Virus record (IMG/VR): IMGVR_UViG_3300030406_003188
Span: 1 to 26,109 of that record
Reading direction: 5' to 3' (one strand)
DNA length: 26,109 nt
Source of the DNA: a virus
Shown in pieces: positions 4,498-23,124 of the stretch. The stretch's first letter is position 1. Each line of letters begins with the position of its first letter. The notes below the pieces were generated by a model. It saw nothing but the letters and a program-made list of their open reading frames with translations. It did not search any database and was not told the origin of the DNA. The position numbers and the translations under genes are program-made.

Positions 4498-7400
4498 TGG
4501 GACAAACTGCAGATACTAGTGGCGCTAAAATACCAATACCGTCAACAACATGGTTGGATGAAGGGTCTAAAGGCACTAACAATGACGATTCTGTTTTGAG
4601 CATACGTGCAGATACAGGTAGCACTACTGAAGATGTTGCGCTTTTGTCTTTTGTAGTTGCAGATGTTGAAACATTAGGCATTCCTTCAAACGCAATATTA
4701 AGAAAAATACATATTGATATTCGTAGATTAACTGCTGGGCCTGCTGCATGTGTAGGGCAAATGTGTTTTTTAAATGAAGGCTTTACAGAAAATCAAGCTA
4801 ATTGGTATGGGCCTGATGACGCAAGTAACAGCGCTGTAATATGGGAACCTGCATTTGATGGTGCTTCTGAAACTACAATCAATCCCGGCCCTTTAAGGGG
4901 TGCAGTGCTTGATAGTTTTAATCTAAATGCACCTAGTACAGATACTTTAGTAATAGATGAAGTGGCAGTACAAAATGAAAATCTAACATTTGGTTCTACT
5001 GTAAATGTTGGGTTATGGGCAACAAGTGGGTCTATGACTATAGAAGATGATTCTGACGCAGGCAGCTCAGGACTTGTACCTAAGTATTTTGTAACATATG
5101 AGATACCAACTCCCTCTTCTCCTAAGATTGCCATCACTGCAAATCCTGATGGTGCAACAGGAAAGATTACAATTAATCAAGATACTGATTCGGAGGATTT
5201 ACAAAAGTATAGTATAGTTTGGTCAACGTCAGACCCAACACCAGACCATGCAGATGATAATGTAACAGATTTTACCGACACAGGTAAGACATCTTTTGAT
5301 ACAAGTACACTTACTGGAAGCGCATTAGCTAACGATAACACCACATATTACTTTAGATTATTTGCAGAAGATTCAGTTAATACAGATGATAATGGAGGTG
5401 CGTCTAATGTTATTGCAGTAACCAGACCAGAGGTTGCAAACAGTAGTGCTATATCTCCATCTACATTAGCAATAGGTGAAGAGACAACATTAACTGTAGC
5501 ATCTACATCTATTGGAGCTGCTGAATTTGGTGGTAAGTTTTCTAGTGTTTTAGTAAACTGGGATGCTGGTGCAAGTGATACTGATGCAGATTATAGTGAG
5601 TATTTCTTTGACCAAGCAACAGCTCCAGCTACTACCACTAGCGGTAATCTTACAATAACTCATAGATATGATACAGATAGTGCAGGTAGTACAAAGACAA
5701 TAAAGGTAAGAGTGAGAGACCCTAATGGCTTTGTAAGTGAAAAACACCCATTAGCAACAGGTGCAACAGTCAATGAGTCTAATCCTGTTTCCAGATTAAC
5801 TACTAGCAGACGTAAAGTATTGTTTTCTAAGTTTGCAGATTTAAATAATATGTTAACTATTAGCTCCGCACAGAGTAGGGCTATTGGAAGTAATAAAGAG
5901 ATACAGAATCATTTATTTGCTTGTAAGTCTGGTAATGCTAACACATTGTCTACAATGGGGGCATTTAGTAATAATAATGAAGTGTTTGATACAGGCACCA
6001 AAAGAGTTGCACTCATACAATTAGATGATGGTAACATGTCTACTATGAGACTTAAGGTGTATGGTCTAGCTTCGTTTAAAGCAGATGGTTTGCCTGTCAA
6101 TGACAAAGATTCTACCTTTTCTCATTATGATTATGTTAGTGAAGAGTTAAGATTAATAGACGGTATTGATGCTGCAGTTGTTTTGAAAGAAGGAACTGAT
6201 GCAGGTGGTGACGGTGTAGCTGGTAACTATACTTATAATTTTTATAAAAGTGTAGAAGTAGCAGTTGTAAGTACTGCAGACACTACAGATACTAATGGCA
6301 GCCGCTACATCTTAGCTGCGTTGAATGCAGATTGGACAACTAGATTGTCTGGTGTTTTGATTAATGAAGCACTTAACAATTCTGAAATGATGATAGATGT
6401 AGACAATACACAGATATTCAAAGCAGGTCAAGTAATTAAAATAGATACAGAGTATATGAAAATAATACGTACTGACTCTGCAAATAACCGTCTTTATGTT
6501 ATAAGAGGTTATTACTTCAGTACTAAAGCAAGCCATAGTGACGACGCAGACATACAGATTGTAGACCCTTTCATTGTAAATAATGAATTACGATATGTAT
6601 CAGATACTACTGTGCCTGTTGATGACCCTGAAGAAAGATATAGGTGGGGTGGCTTTGCTAGATTAAAAGGATTGAATAGTGGTGGTAAGATTGATTTTGC
6701 TGTGCATGATGGCTCTGGTTCTGGTACAGGAGATTCAATACTTGTACAATCTGCTGATGCTAATAGTAGTTCTGCTAATGATACTTGCTGGGTAAACAAC
6801 GGTTTTTTTGAAGATGATATAATTGTAGTAGGCAATACATCTAACAATGGTAGTTACGCTACGCCAAAGTACTACAAGCTCGCTGGATTTGAATCATCAG
6901 GCAGCGGTATATTTGACAAAGCATATGTTTACGGTAGTGATGTAGACGACTTCGTAACTGCAGGGGTTGCTACTGAAGATAACCAAGAAGCTGATATTGT
7001 TAGGATTGTTACGAATCCAAATAGAACGGTAGGCTTTACTACAAGTGGAACATACACTGATACTGTAAGTTTTGAATCACACGTCATAGATGATGATACT
7101 ACATCCTTTTTAGTAAATAATGACATCTCATTTAACTCTATAGTAGTAGCACAACCTCATGTATTAGATTTGATTACCACAACCGATTATGATACTAACA
7201 CTACAGAGAACACACTTACTAGTAATGATATAGCTATATTAGACATGAGAAAGAATAGAGAGGGTGGTGTTGTAGGCCTTATGCCATTAGGCAACCGTAA
7301 ATATCCTGCAAATGTAACACGTAATAAAATGGGATTACCTACTATGACTTTGAATGTTAGAATACTATCACAGACAGGATTACGTAAGATGAGGTCTTTG

Positions 7401-8912: not shown

Positions 8913-9138
8913 CCAATCTTTTACCTAGATGACTTATCTTAGCTTCGATAGCTTTGGAATGACCTACTACATATATCATACTATCAGTATGATTGTAACC
9001 TTTTCTTCCGTAAGACTGTCTAGGTCTTTCCCATATCCCTAGTCTCTTATGATGATTAGGATGATAGCTTTCTTTCATTTGCTCAAGCCAACGTTTGGCA
9101 ACAGTTAATGAGTTTACTTTAACCATTTTTGTTGCCAT
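8905..9138 (-). CDS. Hypothetical basic protein, 77 residues
   Basis: Basic, His- and Arg-rich protein. It starts MATKMVKVNSLTVAKRWLEQM with a likely amphipathic helix, then a His-rich stretch SYHPNHHKR, and ends with an Ile/Lys helix (IEAKISHLGKRLDV). The start at 9138 is supported by a GGAG ribosome site 6 bases upstream (GGAGTTCAACATGG). It overlaps the previous gene by 20 bases and the next by 8. I do not recognise a family. The charge suggests nucleic acid contact, but no defined motif is seen. Confidence 0.65.
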   Translation of the reverse strand: MATKMVKVNSLTVAKRWLEQMKESYHPNHHKRLGIWERPRQSYGRKGYNHTDSMIYVVGHSKAIEAKISHLGKRLDV

Positions 9139-9334
9139 GTTGAACTCCTTTCTCTGCGTCAGCCATTGCTTCTAGTAACATTATCTTGGCTTTGTTTCTG
9201 ATACGTTTCCAATCCTCAGCAAAGGTTTCTTCATCCATTGTAAGTTCTAATTCAATGTCTGCCCTTACAGATTCATATTGCCTTGCTGTAGGTCTAGTAG
9301 CTCCAACCTTTACTTTAATCTTCTCTAACTTCAT
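9119..9334 (-). CDS. Hypothetical protein, 71 residues
   Basis: Begins MKLEKIKVKVGATRPTARQY and continues ESVRADIELELTMDEET, an alternating strand pattern, then a helical C-terminal half (AEDWKRIRNKAKIMLLEAM). The ATG has a strong upstream AAAGGAGT site at a normal distance. This 'two strands with an RADIELEL-type strand, then helix' layout recalls small phage proteins found near single-strand DNA-binding or recombination genes, but I cannot name a family. It overlaps the zinc-ribbon gene upstream by 20 bases and the basic 77-residue gene downstream by 20 bases. Confidence 0.65.
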   Translation of the reverse strand: MKLEKIKVKVGATRPTARQYESVRADIELELTMDEETFAEDWKRIRNKAKIMLLEAMADAEKGVQHGNKNG

Positions 9335-9473
9335 CTTTACTCCTTTTCATAAATTGTTTATCTACAATGATACCACACTTACTACAATTAAGCATAAGAC
9401 AATCATATGCCTTATCACTACTAGTAATAACATCAAGTTTGAAAGAACCGCCACACTTCGTACAACTACCCAT
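9315..9473 (-). CDS. Zinc-ribbon protein, 52 residues
   Basis: Translates as MGSCTKCGGSFKLDV, a 15-residue linker, then LNCSKCGIIVDKQF and a basic tail ending KDEVRED. The two CxxC knuckles (C4/C7 and C30/C33) separated by ~22 residues define a classic four-cysteine zinc ribbon. The start overlaps the stop of the upstream 73-residue gene by 8 bases and the 3' end overlaps the next gene by 20 bases. It is one of three zinc-type microproteins in this operon. Zinc ribbons of this size usually contact nucleic acid or polymerase; the actual partner is not visible from sequence. Confidence 0.7.
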   Translation of the reverse strand: MGSCTKCGGSFKLDVITSSDKAYDCLMLNCSKCGIIVDKQFMKRSKDEVRED

Positions 9474-9687
9474 TCAATGATTTCTCCTCTACATCTAACC
9501 ATTGCTTTACTTTGAGTATTCGTTCTATACGATACTTGTAACGCTCGACATCAGCTAACTTATCTCTATGATACAGCGCAGCATCATTAACTGCGAATAG
9601 ATGCTCTTTAAGCACGTCTGTATCCATAGCGAATAGTTCGTACAGGAAATGTCTTTCGACACCCGTAGTCTCTTTCTTACGAGGCAT
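9466..9687 (-). CDS. Hypothetical helical protein, 73 residues
   Basis: A charged, almost entirely helical protein (HFLYELFAMDTDVLKEHLFA, then DKLADVERYKYRIERILKVK), probably a short coiled coil or helical hairpin. The basic N-terminus MPRKKETTG could contact DNA. It overlaps both neighbours (11 bases with the 50-residue gene, 8 with the zinc-ribbon gene). No known family recognised; reading frame and compact operon position are the evidence that it is real. Confidence 0.65.
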   Translation of the reverse strand: MPRKKETTGVERHFLYELFAMDTDVLKEHLFAVNDAALYHRDKLADVERYKYRIERILKVKQWLDVEEKSLNG

Positions 9688-9829
9688 CGGTCATTGCCTC
9701 TTTTACACGCTTTACATGCCAAGCGTGATTGGCATTATCTTCAACCATCTTATGATAGTCTTTGATTTCTTGCAGGCTCATCCGCATCATTTCATCAACG
9801 GACACTAGTTCTTTGTTTGTTTTACTCAT
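9677..9829 (-). CDS. Hypothetical protein, 50 residues
   Basis: Short helical protein starting MSKTNKELVSVDEMMRMSLQ and ending VKRVKEAMTDAS. The ATG is preceded by AGAAGGAG seven bases upstream and overlaps the stop of the zinc-binding gene before it (the ATGA arrangement). Its stop lies inside the start region of the 73-residue gene. No family recognised. The ribosome site and the overlap on both sides argue that it is translated. Confidence 0.6.
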   Translation of the reverse strand: MSKTNKELVSVDEMMRMSLQEIKDYHKMVEDNANHAWHVKRVKEAMTDAS

Positions 9830-9999
9830 TTGTTTTCTCCTTCTAGGATGTAAATCTCTTCATCTATAATATATATCTCAGTGTTCTCATAACAGTCACC
9901 ACAGATTCCCATTGACTGATTGATAACATATAACAAATCCTCAATACTTTCTCCACAAGCATCGCACTCTTCACAGAAGTAATCTTTCCATTTACGCAT
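9826..9999 (-). CDS. Zinc-ribbon protein, 57 residues
   Basis: Sequence opens MRKWKDYFCEECDACGESIE and later has GICGDCYENT, then an acidic tail EIYIIDEEIYILEGENK. Cysteines C9, C12, C15 and the pair C33/C36 supply a CxxC ... CxxC zinc ribbon with one spare cysteine. The start codon shares bases with the stop of the nuclease gene (TAATG), and its own stop overlaps the next ATG. It is probably translated by coupling to the nuclease and might work with it, but this is inference. Confidence 0.7.
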   Translation of the reverse strand: MRKWKDYFCEECDACGESIEDLLYVINQSMGICGDCYENTEIYIIDEEIYILEGENK

Positions 10000-10886
10000 T
10001 ATTTAAACTTCCTTCCTTTACTTCTATGTGGTAAATCTAATTCATCGCATAATTGTTTCATAACTCTCCAGCCAACTTTAACTGATTTATAAATCTCAGT
10101 TCGTGGCAAACCTGCATCCCATAGTCTTAGTATCTCTTTCTTAAGGTCTTCAGTATCGCCATCAAAGTAACGGTATTGTTTTCTTTTGTATTTGCCACCA
10201 CCTACATCAATACCAAACTTTCTTCTATATTTAATAATAGGACTTCTACCTAAATTAAAATACTTCATAGCCTCATCAATAGTTACATGCTCTTTTTTGA
10301 AAAAAGCAATAAATTCTTTTTTAAATTCTTTCTTACAATCTTTTTCAAACTGTAATAACTTTTTAGTTACTGTGTTTTTCCTGCGAGTAAAACTTGATTT
10401 ATTGTCATTTGTAAATATGTCAAAACCAATGTTCCTACAAGAATCAAATCTCATATAAGAATCACATAATGAAAAGCGACCCTTTTCTTTACTGGCACTT
10501 ATCTTATAGCCACGCAGTCCTCTTTCATGTATATAATTTTGTGGTATAATATAAATAACATTTATTGTATCATCACGATTGAAACCTAAACAGACAGCAT
10601 AATCAAACGCATCTTTCATACGCTGTTCTTCTGAGAACTTAAAAGTAAATACTTTAGTTCCTGACTTTCGAGTTCTAAGATAAGAAGTTTTAACTTCTAT
10701 TCTATGATTACGTTGCCACAAATAAAGGTCAAAGGTCTTGTCTATACTTATAGAATCAACACCTACTTTAGTAAGTTCTGATTGAACGTAGTATTCACCT
10801 AGTCTACCTATTAACTCTTTACGTAACATTTCAGCTTGTCTTTCCAAGCGGCTGGCTTTTGTTTGTGTGTCATGATTTTGTTTCAT
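9999..10886 (-). CDS. PD-(D/E)XK nuclease with C-terminal DNA-binding helices
   Basis: I start the gene at the ATG at 10886 (295 residues), because a TATA box (TATATAAGG on the plus strand, 10911-10919) lies ~28 bp upstream; an upstream ATG at 11018 would add 44 residues that span the promoter. Nuclease core: GRLGEYYVQSEL (E31), then FDLYLW (D53), then RIEVKTSYL (E64, K66), the E...D...ExK arrangement of PD-(D/E)XK enzymes such as archaeal Holliday-junction resolvases and restriction-type endonucleases. The C-terminal half has a basic region and two helix-turn-helix-like stretches (TIDEAMKYFNLGRSPIIKYR at ~205-225; AGLPRTEIYKSVKVGWRVMK at ~262-282). It heads an eight-gene operon. Likely roles are recombination, genome resolution or a homing/defence nuclease. 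Confidence 0.75.
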   Translation of the reverse strand: MKQNHDTQTKASRLERQAEMLRKELIGRLGEYYVQSELTKVGVDSISIDKTFDLYLWQRNHRIEVKTSYLRTRKSGTKVFTFKFSEEQRMKDAFDYAVCLGFNRDDTINVIYIIPQNYIHERGLRGYKISASKEKGRFSLCDSYMRFDSCRNIGFDIFTNDNKSSFTRRKNTVTKKLLQFEKDCKKEFKKEFIAFFKKEHVTIDEAMKYFNLGRSPIIKYRRKFGIDVGGGKYKRKQYRYFDGDTEDLKKEILRLWDAGLPRTEIYKSVKVGWRVMKQLCDELDLPHRSKGRKFK

Positions 10887-10904
10887 GTTATTAGGCTTAT
10901 ACAA

Positions 10905-10943
10905 ACCCAGTATATAAGGTTTATGTAAACCCTTTATCGTCGA
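10905..10943 (-). promoter_or_regulatory. Promoter of the nuclease operon with upstream CGACGATAAA element
   Basis: Read on the minus strand: CGACGATAAA (10943-10934), 13 bases, then CCTTATATACTGGG, with the ATG ~28 bp after the TATA centre. The transcript would therefore be leaderless or have a leader of a few bases. The same CGACGATAAA plus CCTTATATA combination occurs at 14186-14211 with a 7-base gap, pointing to a shared regulator that binds just upstream of the TATA box. Confidence 0.65.
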
Positions 10944-10963
10944 GAATCGTTGTAGACAGGCAG

Positions 10964-11059
10964 TTCTATGGGTTAAACAAAATACCCTGTAGGGTCTTTT
11001 TTGTGTATTTTTGGTCATCCTAGGCCTATTTCTATGGGTTAAACAAAATATCCTGTTGG
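10964..11059 (+). repeat. Two-copy direct repeat, 66-bp period
   Basis: TTCTATGGGTTAAACAAAAT plus A at 10964-10984 recurs exactly at 11030-11050. The match continues through CCTGT and GG with two substitutions, about 28 of 30 identical. The pair lies just upstream of the nuclease promoter in noncoding DNA. This could be a binding site pair for a replication or regulatory protein. No matching third copy was seen. Confidence 0.8.
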
Positions 11060-11374
11060 CCCAAAATCAAGTACATTCAAGATGTAAATCAATAAATCAA
11101 ATAAAATTAGATAATTATTGATTGATAAATTATAGTGAAATCTAAAAAGATGCGCTAGGAGCGCCGCTATTGGCTTGAAATGTGTCTGGACTATGTTGGT
11201 ACTCTGGGATAATATAAACCCTATTAGCGTTCGTTTAACAGTATCAGAAATGGATTTCTGTATTGGATTAATTACCCTAGTTGATAAATTAGATTTTGGA
11301 TTTATCCTATGCGTACGATAAAACCGAGGATAAAGGCGAGCCTCAAGGCTAACGCTAATTGAAGTTAAAATGGG

Positions 11375-11399
11375 GTCGGGAGACCCTAGAACTCCCGAC
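11375..11399. terminator. Perfect 8-bp stem-loop
   Basis: GTCGGGAG pairs with CTCCCGAC across a 9-base loop. The right arm merges with a CGACGATAGA element (11396-11405). It could be the second of two hairpins ending the minus-strand 13685-11484 operon, or part of a structured regulatory region. No T-run follows on either strand, so a simple intrinsic terminator is uncertain. Confidence 0.4.
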
Positions 11400-11436
11400 G
11401 ATAGAATTAGATTTTCTAGGTTTTCAGGGGGGTTCT

Positions 11437-11462
11437 GCTAGAGCTGCGCTGATTGCTCTAGC
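11437..11462 (-). terminator. Perfect 8-bp stem-loop downstream of the 142-residue-frame gene
   Basis: GCTAGAGC and GCTCTAGC form an 8-bp stem with a 10-base loop, 21 bases after the stop of the last gene in the minus-strand module. The position suits 3'-end formation or protection of that transcript. There is no long T-run after it on the minus strand. Confidence 0.4.
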
Positions 11463-11483
11463 TATCGACGACAAAAGACCCAA

Positions 11484-11903
11484 TTAATTGCCCCCGAATT
11501 TTTCATTAAACCAGTCGTCGAGGTCCTCGTCAATCCATGCGTTTACTTCTTGCTCGATGTAGCAATAAACCGCTACTCCCTCGATACCAAGCACAAAACT
11601 ATCTGGATTCTTAAGGACCTCATCGACGCTACAAATTCCCGCATCCTCAAAGGCTTCCATTAAGGTCCATTTGTGGACGAACATTAAGGCTTCTAGCTCG
11701 TGAGTATAGACAGGCACCGCACCGTCTATAATTTCGTGCTTGGTTCCGTCATACTCTAGCACTTCCATTATGCTGTCATTGTCCATGCTCTCGTCTATTT
11801 CTCCCTCACTTACAAGCCAAGCAATAGCCCGCTTAATTTCGTCTATTGTATCGTCTACAAGTTCGGTTAAATCCTGCTTGATTTCTACGGTGTAGCTTCT
11901 CAT
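11484..11903 (-). CDS. Acidic protein of unknown function, 139 residues
   Basis: The ATG at 11903 overlaps the stop of the preceding gene (CTATGA), so I prefer it to a GTG three codons upstream. The protein is strongly acidic throughout (DDTIDEIKRAIAWL, EGEIDESMDNDSIMEVLEYD, and an end EQEVNAWIDEDLDDWFNEKF). A middle segment (YTHELEALMFVHKWTLMEAF) resembles a helix-rich core seen in small plasmid and phage proteins. Such acidic proteins sometimes mimic DNA and block restriction or repair enzymes, but I see no motif of a known inhibitor family (ArdA was considered). It is the last gene of a four-gene operon. Function unknown. Confidence 0.7.
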   Translation of the reverse strand: MRSYTVEIKQDLTELVDDTIDEIKRAIAWLVSEGEIDESMDNDSIMEVLEYDGTKHEIIDGAVPVYTHELEALMFVHKWTLMEAFEDAGICSVDEVLKNPDSFVLGIEGVAVYCYIEQEVNAWIDEDLDDWFNEKFGGN

Positions 11904-13267
11904 AGTTTCCACCTTGCCCTATTGGCGTTTTCTGTTAAATCTGACTCCGTTATGTAATGCTCCTCATTAGACACTTTCACCTGAATAAACGGTGTTTTCT
12001 TGTACCTGTTCATAGCTACGTTTTGCTGATGTCGGATTGAGTTTACATACTTCATAATTTCGGCCATTCTTCCAGCGCTTGAAATGGTGTATATTTTGCC
12101 CTGTTCTAGCATTTCGTTTAGTGCTTGATTGAATGTCTTTCTGTCTTCTGGTCTGGAGTAGTGGGAAGAGTGCAAAATCTCCTCAAGTGGGTTCCATTCA
12201 TCAGCACGATAAAAGCCGCTTCTCTCATAATCTGAAATAGATTTATACATAACTTGACCGCTTAAAACGACCTCAGAATCTTGTGAGTTGTAGTATCTCG
12301 ATTTTATGCCAAATCTCTTTCTAAAATCTAGCAGATAAATTAAGAATCCCTGATAATCAAAATTAGCAAGGGTCACTATGTCCACATGATGCCAATAAGT
12401 GAAGGCTTTTTCGGTCCCCATTTCAGAAAGGCGGAGAGGCGCATTTAGAGCCGTTCTTAATCGCTGTAGCTCGTCGGCTATAGGTTCCCATAGCTCGAGC
12501 CATTCTTTAGCGTATTCTAGCTGCCTAAAACCAGAAGTTAAAGCGTGCTTAGGATAAAGCGGGTTTCTGTCTGAACTTCGGCTATTTGCTAACCTCTCAA
12601 AACTACCCCGACCTATTGACCCGTGAATATCGTTTATATCTTCTCTAAATCTGTCTTTTCTAGCTTCAAAAAGGTCAATAAATTTATAGAAAAATTGAAC
12701 CCTTCTTACAAACTCAGAACGGGCCTTTTTATCTTCGGCTTTTTCGTTCGTTTTTCTCACCCAATTTTCATACTCCTTTACCTCTTCCTCTATCTCAGGG
12801 CTTATTTTCTCTCTAAATAAATCCTTGAGTTTAGACACGGTTAACTTGTGTTTGTATCTTCGGTCGTAGCTCTTAGATGTATCAGACTCAACAAAGCCGA
12901 GCGCCTCGATTCTCTCGTCTAAAAGGGCCTGAATGGTTTTAATTTTCTCGTGGTTATTCTCGACTTCTTCGCCTTTTTTCCTCAATTCCTCCTCTATCTG
13001 ATGGCGATAAAAGTTCCTGAAAGCGTGGGCAATATCGCTCTTATTTTCAGCCCATTTTAGACGCTCGTTTATTGGGTCGTATATCGTGCTGAAATCATCC
13101 CAATATCTCTTATGCAAAAACACCGAAGGTTCACCGTAGGTTTTTACCTTAAAATTCTTGCCTGCTTCGTTGTCTTCGAGGTGGCTAAATTCGACGTGTT
13201 TTTGGTAATGGTTCTCTATCCTGTAAGCTCTTGCCCTGCGTAGCCTTTCTTTCTCAGTATAAGCCAT
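11900..13267 (-). CDS. Large charged protein of unknown function, 455 residues
   Basis: The ATG has GGAGGAG eight bases upstream. The protein is rich in Lys, Glu and Arg; residues ~85-250 are long charged helices, probably coiled coil (HQIEEELRKKGEEVENNHEK; ISPEIEEEVKEYENWVRK). Residues ~265-340 are more globular (FTYWHHVDIVTLANFDYQGF, then LLDFRKRFGIKSRYYNSQD), and the C-terminal ~100 residues resemble a small winged-helix-like part (DRKTFNQALNEMLEQGKIYT). I recognise no family. It is the biggest gene of a module that lies between two repeat-rich noncoding regions, so a replication-initiation or genome-maintenance role is possible. No Walker, primase or clear HUH endonuclease motif is visible. 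Its G+C content and codon choice seem higher than those of the tail genes. Confidence 0.75.
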   Translation of the reverse strand: MAYTEKERLRRARAYRIENHYQKHVEFSHLEDNEAGKNFKVKTYGEPSVFLHKRYWDDFSTIYDPINERLKWAENKSDIAHAFRNFYRHQIEEELRKKGEEVENNHEKIKTIQALLDERIEALGFVESDTSKSYDRRYKHKLTVSKLKDLFREKISPEIEEEVKEYENWVRKTNEKAEDKKARSEFVRRVQFFYKFIDLFEARKDRFREDINDIHGSIGRGSFERLANSRSSDRNPLYPKHALTSGFRQLEYAKEWLELWEPIADELQRLRTALNAPLRLSEMGTEKAFTYWHHVDIVTLANFDYQGFLIYLLDFRKRFGIKSRYYNSQDSEVVLSGQVMYKSISDYERSGFYRADEWNPLEEILHSSHYSRPEDRKTFNQALNEMLEQGKIYTISSAGRMAEIMKYVNSIRHQQNVAMNRYKKTPFIQVKVSNEEHYITESDLTENANRARWKL

Positions 13268-13269
13268 GT

Positions 13270-13518
13270 TTAGAACTCCTCCTTTTGGTTTTCTTCATCG
13301 GCCCATTTTGCCAGCTTCAATAGTTCGTTTTTTGCCTCTTGGATTGAATCGGGTTTGGCGTCGGGATTTCTCAATATTTCGATGTAGACTTTTGTAGCAA
13401 AAACCCAAGAAATATTTATCTTAACTTTTCGGGTTTCTTTTTCACTTACAGGCTTTAGAACTTCACGAATATTGTAAATGTTATCAGATAAAGCGGTTTT
13501 TTCTCTTCCGTAGTTCAT
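13270..13518 (-). CDS. Hypothetical protein, 82 residues
   Basis: I use the ATG at 13518, with AAGGAGGG about ten bases upstream, rather than the TTG nine bases earlier. Sequence opens MNYGREKTALSDNIYNIREV, then a Lys-rich strand VSEKETRKVKINISWVFATK, then a helix with KNELLKLAKWADEENQKEEF. The strand-helix layout is compact but matches no family I know. It lies two bases before the 455-residue gene, so the pair is probably cotranscribed and may act together. Confidence 0.65.
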   Translation of the reverse strand: MNYGREKTALSDNIYNIREVLKPVSEKETRKVKINISWVFATKVYIEILRNPDAKPDSIQEAKNELLKLAKWADEENQKEEF

Positions 13519-13520
13519 AC

Positions 13521-13685
13521 TTACCAACCCTCCTTTCTGACGTAGAACCTAAAGCCATAATCGTACCTAAAAAGTAGACTATCTCCAAAGGCTGCGCACT
13601 CTTCATGAAATTGTGCCATGCTGTCCAATTCATCGGTTGGGGCCTCATTGCTTGCGTATTCAGTTATTTTTGTTTGTGTATTCAT
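13521..13685 (-). CDS. Hypothetical protein, 54 residues, first gene of the module
   Basis: Opens MNTQTKITEYASNEAPTDEL and continues DSMAQFHEECAAFGDSLLFR, ending with the aromatic-rich YDYGFRFYVRKEGW. The ATG lies ~30 bp after the palindromic TATA element at 13712-13723. The stop overlaps the ribosome site region of the next gene. No family recognised. The promoter distance and tight spacing to the next gene support a real coding sequence. Confidence 0.6.
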   Translation of the reverse strand: MNTQTKITEYASNEAPTDELDSMAQFHEECAAFGDSLLFRYDYGFRFYVRKEGW

Positions 13686-13711: not shown

Positions 13712-13786
13712 CACTATATAGTGTCTGAATTTTGGACTTTCTATTATAGTATAATATTTGTTTGTGCTTGCTATCGTCGACAAAAA
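13712..13786 (-). promoter_or_regulatory. Promoter of the 13685-11484 operon with palindrome and CGACGATA element
   Basis: The perfect 12-bp palindrome CACTATATAGTG (13712-13723) contains the TATA sequence, ~30 bp before the first ATG, so a repressor binding the palindrome would block TBP. A further TATA-like run (TATTATACTATAATAG, minus strand) lies upstream near 13741-13757, and the element TATCGTCGACAAAAA is at 13772-13786. The latter matches TATCGACGACAAAAG at 11463-11477 at 13 of 15 positions, so copies flank the module. Confidence 0.55.
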
Positions 13787-14185
13787 TTTGTATGCCCTAT
13801 ATAAATGTATTAAAAATCTAAAACAGTGGTCTACAACCTCAGGTTGTCTACCCGCTCGCAGTTGGGAAGAGGCCGCTATTTAAGTAAAAAATCCAAAACA
13901 AAAATATTTAGCTTTGAGGTTTATATAAGGCCATATTGAAAATTTTTTAATTATCACAAAGTTGTTACGGCGTTATGTGTACTTTTTCATTTATATAAGC
14001 CCAGCTAGAAAGCCAAAAACAGCCAAAAACGCCGCAGCTCAAAAAGAAATATCGAGTATATAAATAAATAAGGTTTTTATCGAGGAGAAAGAACCTAATG
14101 TTTAGGGAACCCTAATAAAATTCTATCTCATTTTTGACCCCTTTGGTTTAATTTTCTATTGCACTGCATAAGTAAAATTCTTTCA

Positions 14186-14246
14186 CGACGATAAATTAAA
14201 CTCCTTATATAAACCTCATCGACGATAAACACTTTTTCAAAAAGTG
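14186..14246 (+). promoter_or_regulatory. TATA box flanked by two CGACGATAAA elements, followed by a dyad
   Basis: CGACGATAAA at 14186-14195 and again at 14220-14229, same orientation, 34 bp apart. Between them is CCTTATATAAACC (14203-14215). Directly after the second copy is the 17-bp dyad CACTTTTT-C-AAAAAGTG. The arrangement suits a repressed or activated promoter, yet no open frame starts at the expected distance, so any product would be a noncoding RNA or a primer transcript. Confidence 0.55.
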
Positions 14247-14429
14247 ACATAATTGAAAACTTACAGAATTAACAAAAATAACAGTAGAAACAGTAGTTAG
14301 AATAGTAGCACATTCAATAATCATTTAGAGCCAAAAGAAGCCCCAAAGAATCAACAAAAATAATGAATTTCAAAAGTACTATTGGAAGCAATCAAATTAC
14401 TATAAACCTTCAAGCACAAAATCAGGTTT

Positions 14430-14580
14430 AGAAGTCACCAAGGGGCGCTATCGTTTCGGCTCTTCCTCGGGCGAGGCTAGAGGGTGGCGTTGCATGTCAA
14501 GGGGTACGGGGTACGGTTCGGAGGTAGGTAATCTATATTTTTTCTAATATTTTGAAACGTGAGCTGCTAATTTTTTTTTT
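14430..14580 (+). ncRNA. Candidate small structured RNA
   Basis: A TATA-like TATAAACC (14401-14408) lies ~27 bp before the proposed start. The body includes a GC-rich island in AT-rich surroundings, a hairpin with loop GGGC (TCTTCCTC-GGGC-GAGGCTAGA, 14461-14481), a tandem GGGGTAC GGGGTAC (14501-14514), and then T-runs ending in ten Ts at 14571-14580, the type of oligo-T signal at which archaeal polymerase stops. No tRNA cloverleaf or other known RNA family fits. Speculative. Confidence 0.25.
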
Positions 14581-14588
14581 GGAGTAGG

Positions 14589-14617
14589 TTTATATTGAGG
14601 GGGCTTATAGCGACCTT
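14589..14617 (+). promoter_or_regulatory. Leaderless promoter of the terminase operon
   Basis: TTTATATT (14589-14596) is centred 26 bp before the ATG at 14618, the archaeal TATA-to-start distance, and there is no ribosome site upstream of that ATG. Transcription would begin at or within a few bases of the start codon. A run of ten Ts directly precedes the TATA region. Confidence 0.65.
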
Positions 14618-16787: not shown

Positions 16788-16951
16788 AGTGGAAGTTTAA
16801 TTGTCATTCATGTGGTACAGTATATCAGATAGAACACAGGCAGTTACACAAGACTGTGTTTTATACTCCAGAAAAAAAAGGCAGGCCGACATTATCATGT
16901 CGAGAATGCAGTACGAAGGTAGTAGGTGATTTAGTTGGTGGGCGTTCATAA
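16784..16951 (+). CDS. Zinc-ribbon protein, 55 residues
   Basis: MKWKFNCHSCGTVYQIEHRQ starts the protein and the partner knuckle is LSCRECSTKVVG. C7/C10 and C39/C42 are separated by a ~28-residue basic insert containing KKGRP, an AT-hook-like tripeptide core. The ATG overlaps the end of the previous gene, and the 3' end overlaps the next gene by about 14 bases. Probably nucleic acid binding. Confidence 0.65.
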   Translation: MKWKFNCHSCGTVYQIEHRQLHKTVFYTPEKKGRPTLSCRECSTKVVGDLVGGRS

Positions 16952-17285
16952 TCAAGCAAGGCGCAACGAGGTATCTCGGTTATTGCGTATGAGTAATCGC
17001 AACAGGAATGCGATGCGATGGAGTAAAAACGAAACAGAGGCGCATATTGACATGAAGTTTGCGATTTGTAAGCAACTTAAGAAGTGGGGACACGAGTTTT
17101 ACACTGAGGCAGTGTTTGACGACTCAGGATTACGAGCAGATGTGATAGATGCAGATGCTAAAGTGATTTATGAGGTAGTAAATACAGAAGATGAGGCCAG
17201 TATATTGCGAAAAAACCGTCATTACCCGCTTGAAATACGTGTTATTAGGGCAGATACAGCGTTTTCAGAGGACTTATTGCTATGA
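16938..17285 (+). CDS. PD-(D/E)XK-fold nuclease-like protein
   Basis: 115 residues from a GTG at 16938 (a TTG at 16935 is also possible; an internal ATG at 16989 would remove 17 residues). A basic N-terminal tail leads to NETEAHIDMKFAICKQLKKW, then YTEAVF, then RADVIDADAKVIYEVVNTED. The order helix-with-E, strand, D, strand-with-E is that of PD-(D/E)XK enzymes, but the usual ExK is EVV, so the catalytic lysine is missing or has moved. It lies directly before an intact nuclease of the same fold. It could be an inactive partner, a DNA-binding subunit, or an enzyme with a relocated residue. Confidence 0.55.
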   Translation: MGVHNQARRNEVSRLLRMSNRNRNAMRWSKNETEAHIDMKFAICKQLKKWGHEFYTEAVFDDSGLRADVIDADAKVIYEVVNTEDEASILRKNRHYPLEIRVIRADTAFSEDLLL

Positions 17286-17788
17286 ATTACAACTTTGATG
17301 ACGATTTGAAAGACGGAAAAAAGGGTGAACAGGTAATTAGGTTCTTTGTCGAGTCGACATTAGGACAAAGATACATTAAGGACAACGATACGAGTGCGTA
17401 TGACCTTCTTTTTGAGGATGAGAACATAGATTTGATTACTTACGAGGTCAAGACAGACCTTTGGGAGAAGGATTGGGACAAAGGAGGGTCAGGAAACATG
17501 GCAATAGAGTACAAATGTCGTGGAAAATCCAGCGGTATCAGTGTTACGAAGGCAAAATACTTTGTTTATTACTTAGTAAACGTGTCAGATAAGCAGATTT
17601 GGCTTATAGAAACCGAAAAACTGCAGGAATTATTGCTACGAGAGAAGTTTCCGAGCAAAACAGTAGGGGAAACTCACTACGACAGCGATGAAAAGGTGGC
17701 AAAATGTTATATGATTCCACGTTTTGAGTACAAAGATGAGTTTGACATCTATACATTTGACGGTGAGAGGTGGTTACGAGAGTTATGA
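17282..17788 (+). CDS. PD-(D/E)XK endonuclease
   Basis: 168 residues. GKKGEQVIRFFVES (E16), AYDLLF (D41) and ITYEVKTDL (E55, K57) form a complete PD-(D/E)XK site. It is followed by NMAIEYKCRGKSSGISVTKA and KYFVYYLVN, the 'E...GK.SGI..TKA' pattern of phage-type nucleases related to restriction enzymes. A four-base overlap couples it to the inactive-looking homologue. It sits two genes before the large terminase, so roles in genome trimming, branch resolution before packaging, or host DNA breakdown are plausible. Confidence 0.75.
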   Translation: MNYNFDDDLKDGKKGEQVIRFFVESTLGQRYIKDNDTSAYDLLFEDENIDLITYEVKTDLWEKDWDKGGSGNMAIEYKCRGKSSGISVTKAKYFVYYLVNVSDKQIWLIETEKLQELLLREKFPSKTVGETHYDSDEKVAKCYMIPRFEYKDEFDIYTFDGERWLREL

Positions 17789-22049: not shown

Positions 22050-22612
22050 GTGCTAATCTAAAAGTAAACATAAAGATAAGCGATAACGCACGTAAGATAT
22101 TTGATGAAATAGGCGTTAGTTTAGAAGATGCAGTTAATATTGCAATGACAGATACAGCAGACAGAATGGCAAACGATGCCAATTCTAATCTAGCAGATAG
22201 CATTGGTGTAAACAGTACATTGTTTGGCAGTGTGATGGTAAAAGATAAACCGTTTAGAAAAGAGATTACAACAAATGTAGACTATGCGGGCTATGTAGAA
22301 TTTGGAACAGGACCATCTAAGCGAGATATGAAAGGCAGAAAGACTGGTGCAAAAAAGTATTGGCCGCCTAAGTTATCTAAAAAGAATCCGTGGCCTAGTA
22401 AGCACACAGTAAAAGCAGAAGCACTAGAAGAATGGAGAGATAAAAAAAGTAAATTCAAATCTTATGATGATTTACGATTTGCTATTTTCAAAAAGGGAAC
22501 TAAGCCACAAAGATATATGGCTAAGGCATTACAAAAAAACAAGACTGCCTTTGTCGAAATGATTGGCAAGGAGTTAGCTCGCCAATCAAACGGCAAGATA
22601 GTAAAGCGCTAA
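22046..22612 (+). CDS. HK97-gp10-like tail/head completion protein
   Basis: 188 residues. The central VDYAGYVEFGTGPSKRDMKG and the later FKKGTKPQRYMAKALQKN are the hallmarks of HK97 gp10-like proteins ('YA.yVEfGTG ... G..pqPfm..A'), which join at the neck or tail end during assembly. An insert between them (KKYWPPKLSKKNPWPSKHTV) is longer and more basic than usual. It ends the portal transcript and its stop overlaps the stop of the converging cysteine protease gene by four bases. Confidence 0.75.
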   Translation: MSANLKVNIKISDNARKIFDEIGVSLEDAVNIAMTDTADRMANDANSNLADSIGVNSTLFGSVMVKDKPFRKEITTNVDYAGYVEFGTGPSKRDMKGRKTGAKKYWPPKLSKKNPWPSKHTVKAEALEEWRDKKSKFKSYDDLRFAIFKKGTKPQRYMAKALQKNKTAFVEMIGKELARQSNGKIVKR

Positions 22613-23124
22613 CGTCTTTCTACTACAAACAATTCTTGCATCTTTGCTCTTTTCATCCAAGTAATTTTAGTAATAGGACATCCTTTTTCTGGTGTAGATG
22701 TGTCCCATACTTTGTTACCTTTGACTACCATGTAATGATTACCTGCAACAACTAGATACCATGTCTTACCACGTTTACCATGTGTTGCTCTAACCCATTG
22801 TCTGAATGTTTGATTAGCTCCATGATTGTCTGACCGATACATCTTGTAACCATATCGTTTCAATGCTCTACGCATTTGACCATTAGACATTCCTTTGATT
22901 TGTGTTTCTTTCTTGGCAGGAATAAACTTCCTTTGACCAGTCCACCAATCTAAACGCATTGTGCCTCTGTTCTTTACATTATGATTTACTTCTTTTAGTA
23001 AGTCCTTTTCTACAATGTCGTATCGCTTACCAGTAAGAACAGTTAATGCAACGGGTCCGCAATATGAGTTGCCTGTTGCACGCTTACTAATCTGTCCTTT
23101 CTTATTGCGAATCACTTTAACCAC
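22609..23124 (-). CDS. C39/papain-like cysteine protease
   Basis: 171 residues, on the opposite strand to the head genes around it. RATGNSYCGPVALTVLTGKR contains the nucleophile (C22, in the SYCGPVA context of C39- and papain-type peptidases). The likely catalytic pair is H130 in VVAGNHYMVVKG and D141 in KVWDTST. The linker is very basic. No signal peptide is visible. It may cleave a viral or host protein, or a cell-wall peptide if released by lysis. The pair with the 89-residue gene has its own promoter and looks like an independently acquired insert. Confidence 0.75.
   Translation of the reverse strand: MVKVIRNKKGQISKRATGNSYCGPVALTVLTGKRYDIVEKDLLKEVNHNVKNRGTMRLDWWTGQRKFIPAKKETQIKGMSNGQMRRALKRYGYKMYRSDNHGANQTFRQWVRATHGKRGKTWYLVVAGNHYMVVKGNKVWDTSTPEKGCPITKITWMKRAKMQELFVVERR

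Follow-up and report, generated by a model that had tools for sequence, protein, structure and literature searches.

What does a four-gene operon do in an archaeal tailed virus? The question was raised by positions 11,484 to 13,685 of a 26,109-base stretch of viral DNA (hereafter, the window), which constitutes a whole IMG/VR virus record. The initial annotation had proposed that the operon is a novel replication or maintenance system or, given the acidic last protein, an anti-host module. The analysis presented here favors the second proposal: the cassette probably serves mainly in counter-defence. A role in overcoming host immunity is considered likelier than one in genome copying because a putative relative of Ocr, the DNA-mimicking protein with which phage T7 disables bacterial restriction, ends the cluster and a knotted RNA borders it.

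The window represents only part of a larger genome: contigs of relatives are up to 34 kb long, and their gene order points to a genome of ~35 kb. Judged from its protein matches and sequence signals, the virus is a marine archaeal tailed virus. For the capsid protein of L011, a close relative, all matches are to haloarchaeal tailed viruses apart from a single Methanofastidiosa virus, with E values down to 2e-35; the best matches of the portal protein are haloarchaeal, and those of TerL are phiH and PhiCh1. TTTATAT-type boxes are located ~25 nt ahead of the start codon at several operon heads. The terminase relatives are IMG/VR contigs with JGI sample numbers, which we take to be marine. A provirus search by TerL scan of GTDB genomes, intended to name the host, found nothing. 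The comparison set consisted of eight viruses with TerL proteins 92-100% identical; viruses with TerL identity of ~70% are referred to as sister viruses.

The four genes are real and are organised as a single transcription unit on the minus strand, marked by a TATA box, by Shine-Dalgarno sites, and by one ATGA overlap. The open reading frames (54, 82, 455, and 139 codons) follow one another head to tail and encode p54 (13,521-13,685), p82 (13,270-13,518), p455 (11,900-13,267), and p139 (11,484-11,903). The intergenic gaps are 2 nt, the ATGA overlap joins p455 and p139, AGGAGG-type sites are found 5′ of p82 and p455, and a GGTGG is found 5′ of p139. Syntenic homologs of p54, p455, and p139 are present in most of the seven other virus contigs, bearing out the four-gene operon described initially. 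The first gene is the most regularly kept, with p54 homologs of 53-96% identity in six of the seven relatives. By comparison, the second position is occupied by different small genes: p82, a small accessory protein, has a close homolog (95% identical) only in L002 among the seven relatives, and other small ORFs fill its slot in L006, L008, L011, and L017. The TATA box, CACTATATAGTG, lies at 13,712-13,723 on the minus strand, ~27 nt 5′ of p54. It had been described as a palindromic promoter; the palindrome is present and the TATA core, GTCCTCACTATATAGT, is kept in six of the eight sequences, but conservation does not extend to the palindrome's right half. A distinctive G+C content, also noted at the outset, was not confirmed: the operon (41.1%) is close to the terminase-portal block (40.3%) and to the whole window (38.6%; tail genes, 35.7%), and thus is not marked as foreign by its composition. 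The observation that the four proteins match no known family stands insofar as none reaches a curated Pfam or NCBIfam cut-off, but not for p139, which is Ocr-like (see below).

The largest protein, p455, is an orphan, whose central part is mostly helical according to a low-confidence model. When 2.9 million viral contigs and the GTDB genomes were scanned, the family was seen in the eight related viruses only, and no homologs were found in phage or plasmid records. Comparison with Pfam, NCBIfam, the PDB, and known folds gave no match for the protein, and it lacks a Walker A motif as well as any recognisable catalytic, ATPase, initiator, helicase, or primase signature. Its structure model is poor (pLDDT 55), and Foldseek and VIA-align returned similarities that were weak or confined to long helices and were not used. 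The models of both p455 and p139 are poor because just eight and seven homologs, respectively, are available. A PADLOC match to BnzA (E 0.0035) covered residues 91-176 of one family member only, was absent from two others scanned, and was treated as chance.

The cassette changes much faster than the virion genes. Among the eight viruses, identities range from 31 to 90% for p455 and from 55 to 89% for p139, compared with 92-100% for TerL, and the genes do not diverge together. In L006, the identities of TerL, p139, and p455 are 99, 89, and 32%, and the corresponding values in L002 are 100, 68, and 90%. L008 lacks p139 and has three other small genes instead, and the small genes between p54 and p455 vary among the relatives. 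A search with the p455 profile (A1) of 50 sister-virus records with the same remaining gene set found no homolog; many of these records are fragments, and several cover the region with other genes. Near the operon's place, sister viruses carry Amidoligase_2 (PF12224; E 6e-15) and class II glutamine amidotransferase (GATase_6) genes, for example at 5438-6346 and 2889-3818 of L037, upstream of the small terminase, and also in L031, L046, L056, L043, and L053. The pair suggests the synthesis of an amide-linked product. Because sister viruses lack p455 and have other genes near there, p455 is not a shared replication gene; as read from these comparisons, turnover of this kind characterises accessory genes that evolve under antagonistic selection and not a core replication gene.

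The last gene provides the main clue to function. With considerable confidence, p139 can be regarded as a distant relative of T7 Ocr, a relationship that was detected by profile methods in both directions. Six of seven p139 homologs match phrog_2568 ("ocr-like anti-restriction"; best E 0.0042), and shuffled (n = 9) and reversed (n = 1) copies of the homologs gave no Ocr match. When p139 was compared by tblastn with 50,697 phage records (E ≤ 10), Ocr or Ocr-like genes made up most of the best 20 matches, and these came from two unrelated phage groups, Streptomyces phages and T7-like phages. Alignment of the p139 family by hhalign gave probabilities of 90.8% with T7-type Ocr and 88.7% with the Streptomyces-phage Ocr-like family, compared with 0.8% for the neighbouring p455. 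None of 300 column shuffles, which preserve composition, reached either Ocr score (highest 28.6 vs 42.3). In the reverse direction, 3,433 distinct ORFs from this group of viruses were searched with the Ocr profiles: p139 homologs took the first six places with the T7-type profile (E 1e-4 to 2e-3; the following ORF, 0.25) and the first seven with the Streptomyces Ocr-like profile. The motif HE[IV][IV]DGxVPxYxHE is common to p139 and the Ocr proteins. The small size and extreme negative charge of Ocr proteins are also present in p139, which has 35 acidic and 8 basic residues among its 139, a pI of 4.05, and a net charge of -27 (T7 Ocr: 117 residues, net -28), and which is predicted to be a DNA mimic.

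Some tests did not recover the relationship. PF08684, the Pfam ocr family, matched neither p139 nor any of its homologs, whereas a T7-type Ocr control scored 112 bits; since no curated cut-off was reached, p139 is named Ocr-like and not a member of PF08684. When PDB sequences were searched with a profile combining p139 and Streptomyces Ocr-like proteins (A14), T7 Ocr was not recovered. The dimer-interface residues F54 and A58 of T7 Ocr (PMC7261183) are not kept in alignment A6, which is uncertain at these positions and in which the natural Ocr set itself varies. The p139 structure model consists of helices only but is poor (pLDDT 54), and Foldseek and VIA-align searches with it matched no structure, returning only weak or long-helix similarities.

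It was also claimed initially that structured noncoding DNA lies on both sides of the operon. This was substantiated on the left, where covariation supports an RNA, but not on the right, where the sequence is conserved without such support. The left flank is, by comparative sequence analysis, a new structured RNA at 11,366-11,482 on the 3′ border of the operon, composed of an H-type pseudoknot and a hairpin. Hairpin S1 pairs 11,375-11,382 with 11,392-11,399 (8 bp), pseudoknot helix S2 pairs the S1 loop (11,385-11,391) with 11,414-11,420 (7 bp), and hairpin P3 pairs 11,437-11,444 with 11,455-11,462 (8 bp). The structure is very likely real. In the alignment of eight viruses (A9), compensatory changes occur in all three helices, standard pairs are formed in 95.9% of cells, and both sides change in 10 of 23 pairs; none of 500 shuffles was as good, and controls in which the structure was slid along the alignment were 30-43% paired. 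One S1 pair varies among G-C, C-G, A-U, and U-A across the relatives, and three S2 pairs are compensated. RNAalifold recovered S1 and P3 unprompted, and S2 separately on a longer alignment. An alternative pairing of AGAACUCCC with GGGGGUUCU, taken from the minimum-energy fold, is lost in L012 and L017 on reading the alignment, and a GATAG/CTATC closing helix, broken in three sequences, was dropped.

No Rfam covariance model matches the element, even at E 10. An exact pattern scan of IMG/VR found it in the other seven viruses and none beyond, a covariance search of 38 sources (the window and relatives) found no further copy, and it is thus present in the same eight viruses as p455. Wobble counts (six G-U pairs on the plus strand, five on the minus) do not decide its strand. 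A loop of 1-2 nt can cross the deep groove of a 7-bp helix, and the element has a 1-2-nt loop, a 7-bp S2, and a 14-nt A-rich loop; on the minus strand, the short loop would be required to cross the shallow groove. The plus strand is preferred because the H-type loop geometry would fit that strand only. A plus-strand reading frame (TIE..FLGFQGG..ARAALIALAIDD) at 11,371-11,480 overlaps the element and is open in seven of the eight viruses over the 3′ half, with third codon positions varying more than the others (p 0.019). The RNA reading is preferred over a coding one because a stop codon interrupts the frame in L017, neither start codons nor frame agree among the sequences (the S1 loop carries a 1-nt indel), and the S1 changes are radical at the protein level. 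A short peptide may overlap the 3′ half of the element.

The right flank is 0.9 kb long and AT-rich, and it contains a conserved noncoding stretch before the small-terminase operon (14,398-14,617, plus strand), in which strong sequence conservation is accompanied by no covariation support (covariation term -0.62 kcal/mol). The motif TATCGTCGA is enriched in the window, with nine sites at up to one mismatch compared with 3.3 expected; sites at 10,935, 11,395-11,473, 13,772, and 14,185-14,227 include several within the operon flanks. Further to the left, a 30-base repeat, TTCTATGGGTTAAACAAAATAyCCTGTwGG, occurs at 10,964-10,993 and 11,030-11,059, before a nuclease-like gene; its core, CTATGGGTTAAAC, is invariant in relatives and also occurs near position 5253 of the sister virus L037. 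The nuclease-like gene is a 339-codon ORF (9999-11,018) whose start is probably near 10,886, as in its homologs, and which has a PD-(D/E)XK-like core (D53, E64-x-K66).

Could p455 instead be a replication initiator of a new type, melting an origin within the AT-rich flanks and their motifs under the control of the other genes? Polymerase, helicase, primase, and initiator genes were seen neither in the window, as the initial annotation had already remarked, nor elsewhere in the near-complete relatives (by ORF lists, selected Pfam scans, and a Walker A scan), and p455 is the largest non-structural protein in this virus and its near-complete relatives. A replication role for the operon does not follow from this, because viruses without p455 likewise lack replication genes. 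Sister viruses of the same genome plan should either share an initiator or show a visible replacement for it, whereas p455 was found in none of 50 sister records, is mosaic, and diverges far faster than virion genes; nor does it have a recognisable catalytic or ATPase motif, family, or fold match. The replication or maintenance system proposed initially is thus considered very unlikely, and the proposal of an anti-host module gains support from the Ocr-like last protein and the fast turnover of its neighbours.

Within an anti-host function, anti-restriction need not be the activity. As a DNA mimic or an acidic binder, p139 could be directed at the RNA polymerase of the host, at nucleoid proteins, or at CRISPR complexes, with p455 acting as a transcription or metabolic regulator. 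T7 Ocr also binds the host RNA polymerase (PMC7261183), acidic DNA mimics act on many targets, and the amidoligase and GATase genes near this place in sister viruses look metabolic. The sequence link of p139 is specific to Ocr-type proteins, however, rather than to acidic proteins generally, and host takeover without anti-restriction is regarded as unlikely. It is quite improbable that the Ocr resemblance reflects a short motif or composition and that the operon is unrelated to defence. The matches do span only ~60-70 residues, mainly around DGAVPVYTHE, with curated cut-offs unmet and T7 Ocr missed in the PDB, but composition-preserving shuffles never reach the score, and two independent Ocr profiles rank p139 homologs first in the reverse search.

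The preferred explanation treats the four genes as an accessory cassette of early type with which a marine archaeal tailed virus would neutralise host defence. Folded into an acidic, DNA-like helical surface, p139 would bind DNA-recognising defence enzymes, by analogy with T7 Ocr the methyltransferase complexes of type I restriction-modification (R-M) or BREX systems, before these reach the viral DNA. The p455 and small proteins might act on other host-defence or host-takeover targets, an assignment to which association and fast evolution point weakly. Anti-defence genes reportedly cluster, according to one study. The RNA at 11,366-11,482, if on the plus strand, would be transcribed towards the p139 end and could be a separate viral RNA or a regulator of the convergent operon end. 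A bolder reading, which we consider rather doubtful, is that it represents a new pseudoknotted viral RNA family that acts in virus-host conflict, for example as a decoy of nucleic-acid-sensing defence, co-inherited with the counter-defence cassette, and that p455 is a new counter-defence class.

Other genes of the window and its relatives were noted in passing. By eye, the ORFs at 16,935-17,285 and 17,282-17,788 also resemble the PD-(D/E)XK nuclease fold. A minus-strand ORF at 22,609-23,124 has SYCGPVAL and NHYMVV motifs resembling those of papain/C39-like cysteine peptidases, with no Pfam match at E 0.01. L048, from a related clade, has a TSPPYWGL-motif gene beside the large terminase, read from this motif as DNA methyltransferase-like, which would fit general pressure from restriction systems; L048 also encodes a PAPS-reductase-like PP-loop protein (SYGGGINSTALLLEW), and the coordinates noted for this pair of genes are 9034-10,005 and 11,455-12,282.

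In the present searches, Ocr-type DNA mimics were otherwise found only in phages of bacteria, and a search of the open-access literature for Ocr together with archaeal viruses found no report. If p139 is an Ocr relative in marine archaeal viruses, DNA-mimic anti-restriction would span both host domains, and in uncultured marine archaea immunity of the restriction or BREX type would exert enough pressure to favor an Ocr-like protein. The mosaic genes around p139 supply a small set of candidates for archaeal counter-defence proteins, and the pseudoknot adds a new viral RNA that is open to testing.

Comparison with known systems places each part of the locus. The RNA shares the S1-L1-S2-L3 topology and A-rich long loop of H-type pseudoknots in Rfam, such as riboswitches and frameshift elements, but it differs from them in having no Rfam match and in that its nearest genes are on the opposite strand. 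The amidoligase and amidotransferase genes of sister viruses share with the operon the genome plan, a place near the small-terminase genes, and the minus strand, but the enzymes are unrelated, and p455, p139, and the pseudoknot were not found there. Both type I R-M and BREX are susceptible to T7 Ocr, and archaea are among the organisms that carry BREX (PMC7261183). With T7 Ocr (gene 0.3) and the Ocr proteins of Autographiviridae (PF08684, phrog_2568), p139 has in common its size class, a charge near -27, and the D[GN]xVPxY motif; like T7 Ocr, it sits in an operon of small accessory genes, and a low-confidence model predicts it to be helical. It differs in its low identity (22-27%, below the Pfam cut-off), in its longer N-terminal part, in the T7 dimer residues, which are not kept in the uncertain alignment there, and in being encoded by an archaeal virus as the last gene of an operon containing the orphan p455. 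The Ocr-like proteins of Streptomyces phages (phrog_4239, "OCR-like antirestriction protein"), whose function is assigned by annotation, have bacterial hosts and an N-terminal stretch absent from p139, but p139 resembles them in its length of ~140 residues, its acidity, and the motif EIxDGAVPVYTHE, at 15-28% identity.
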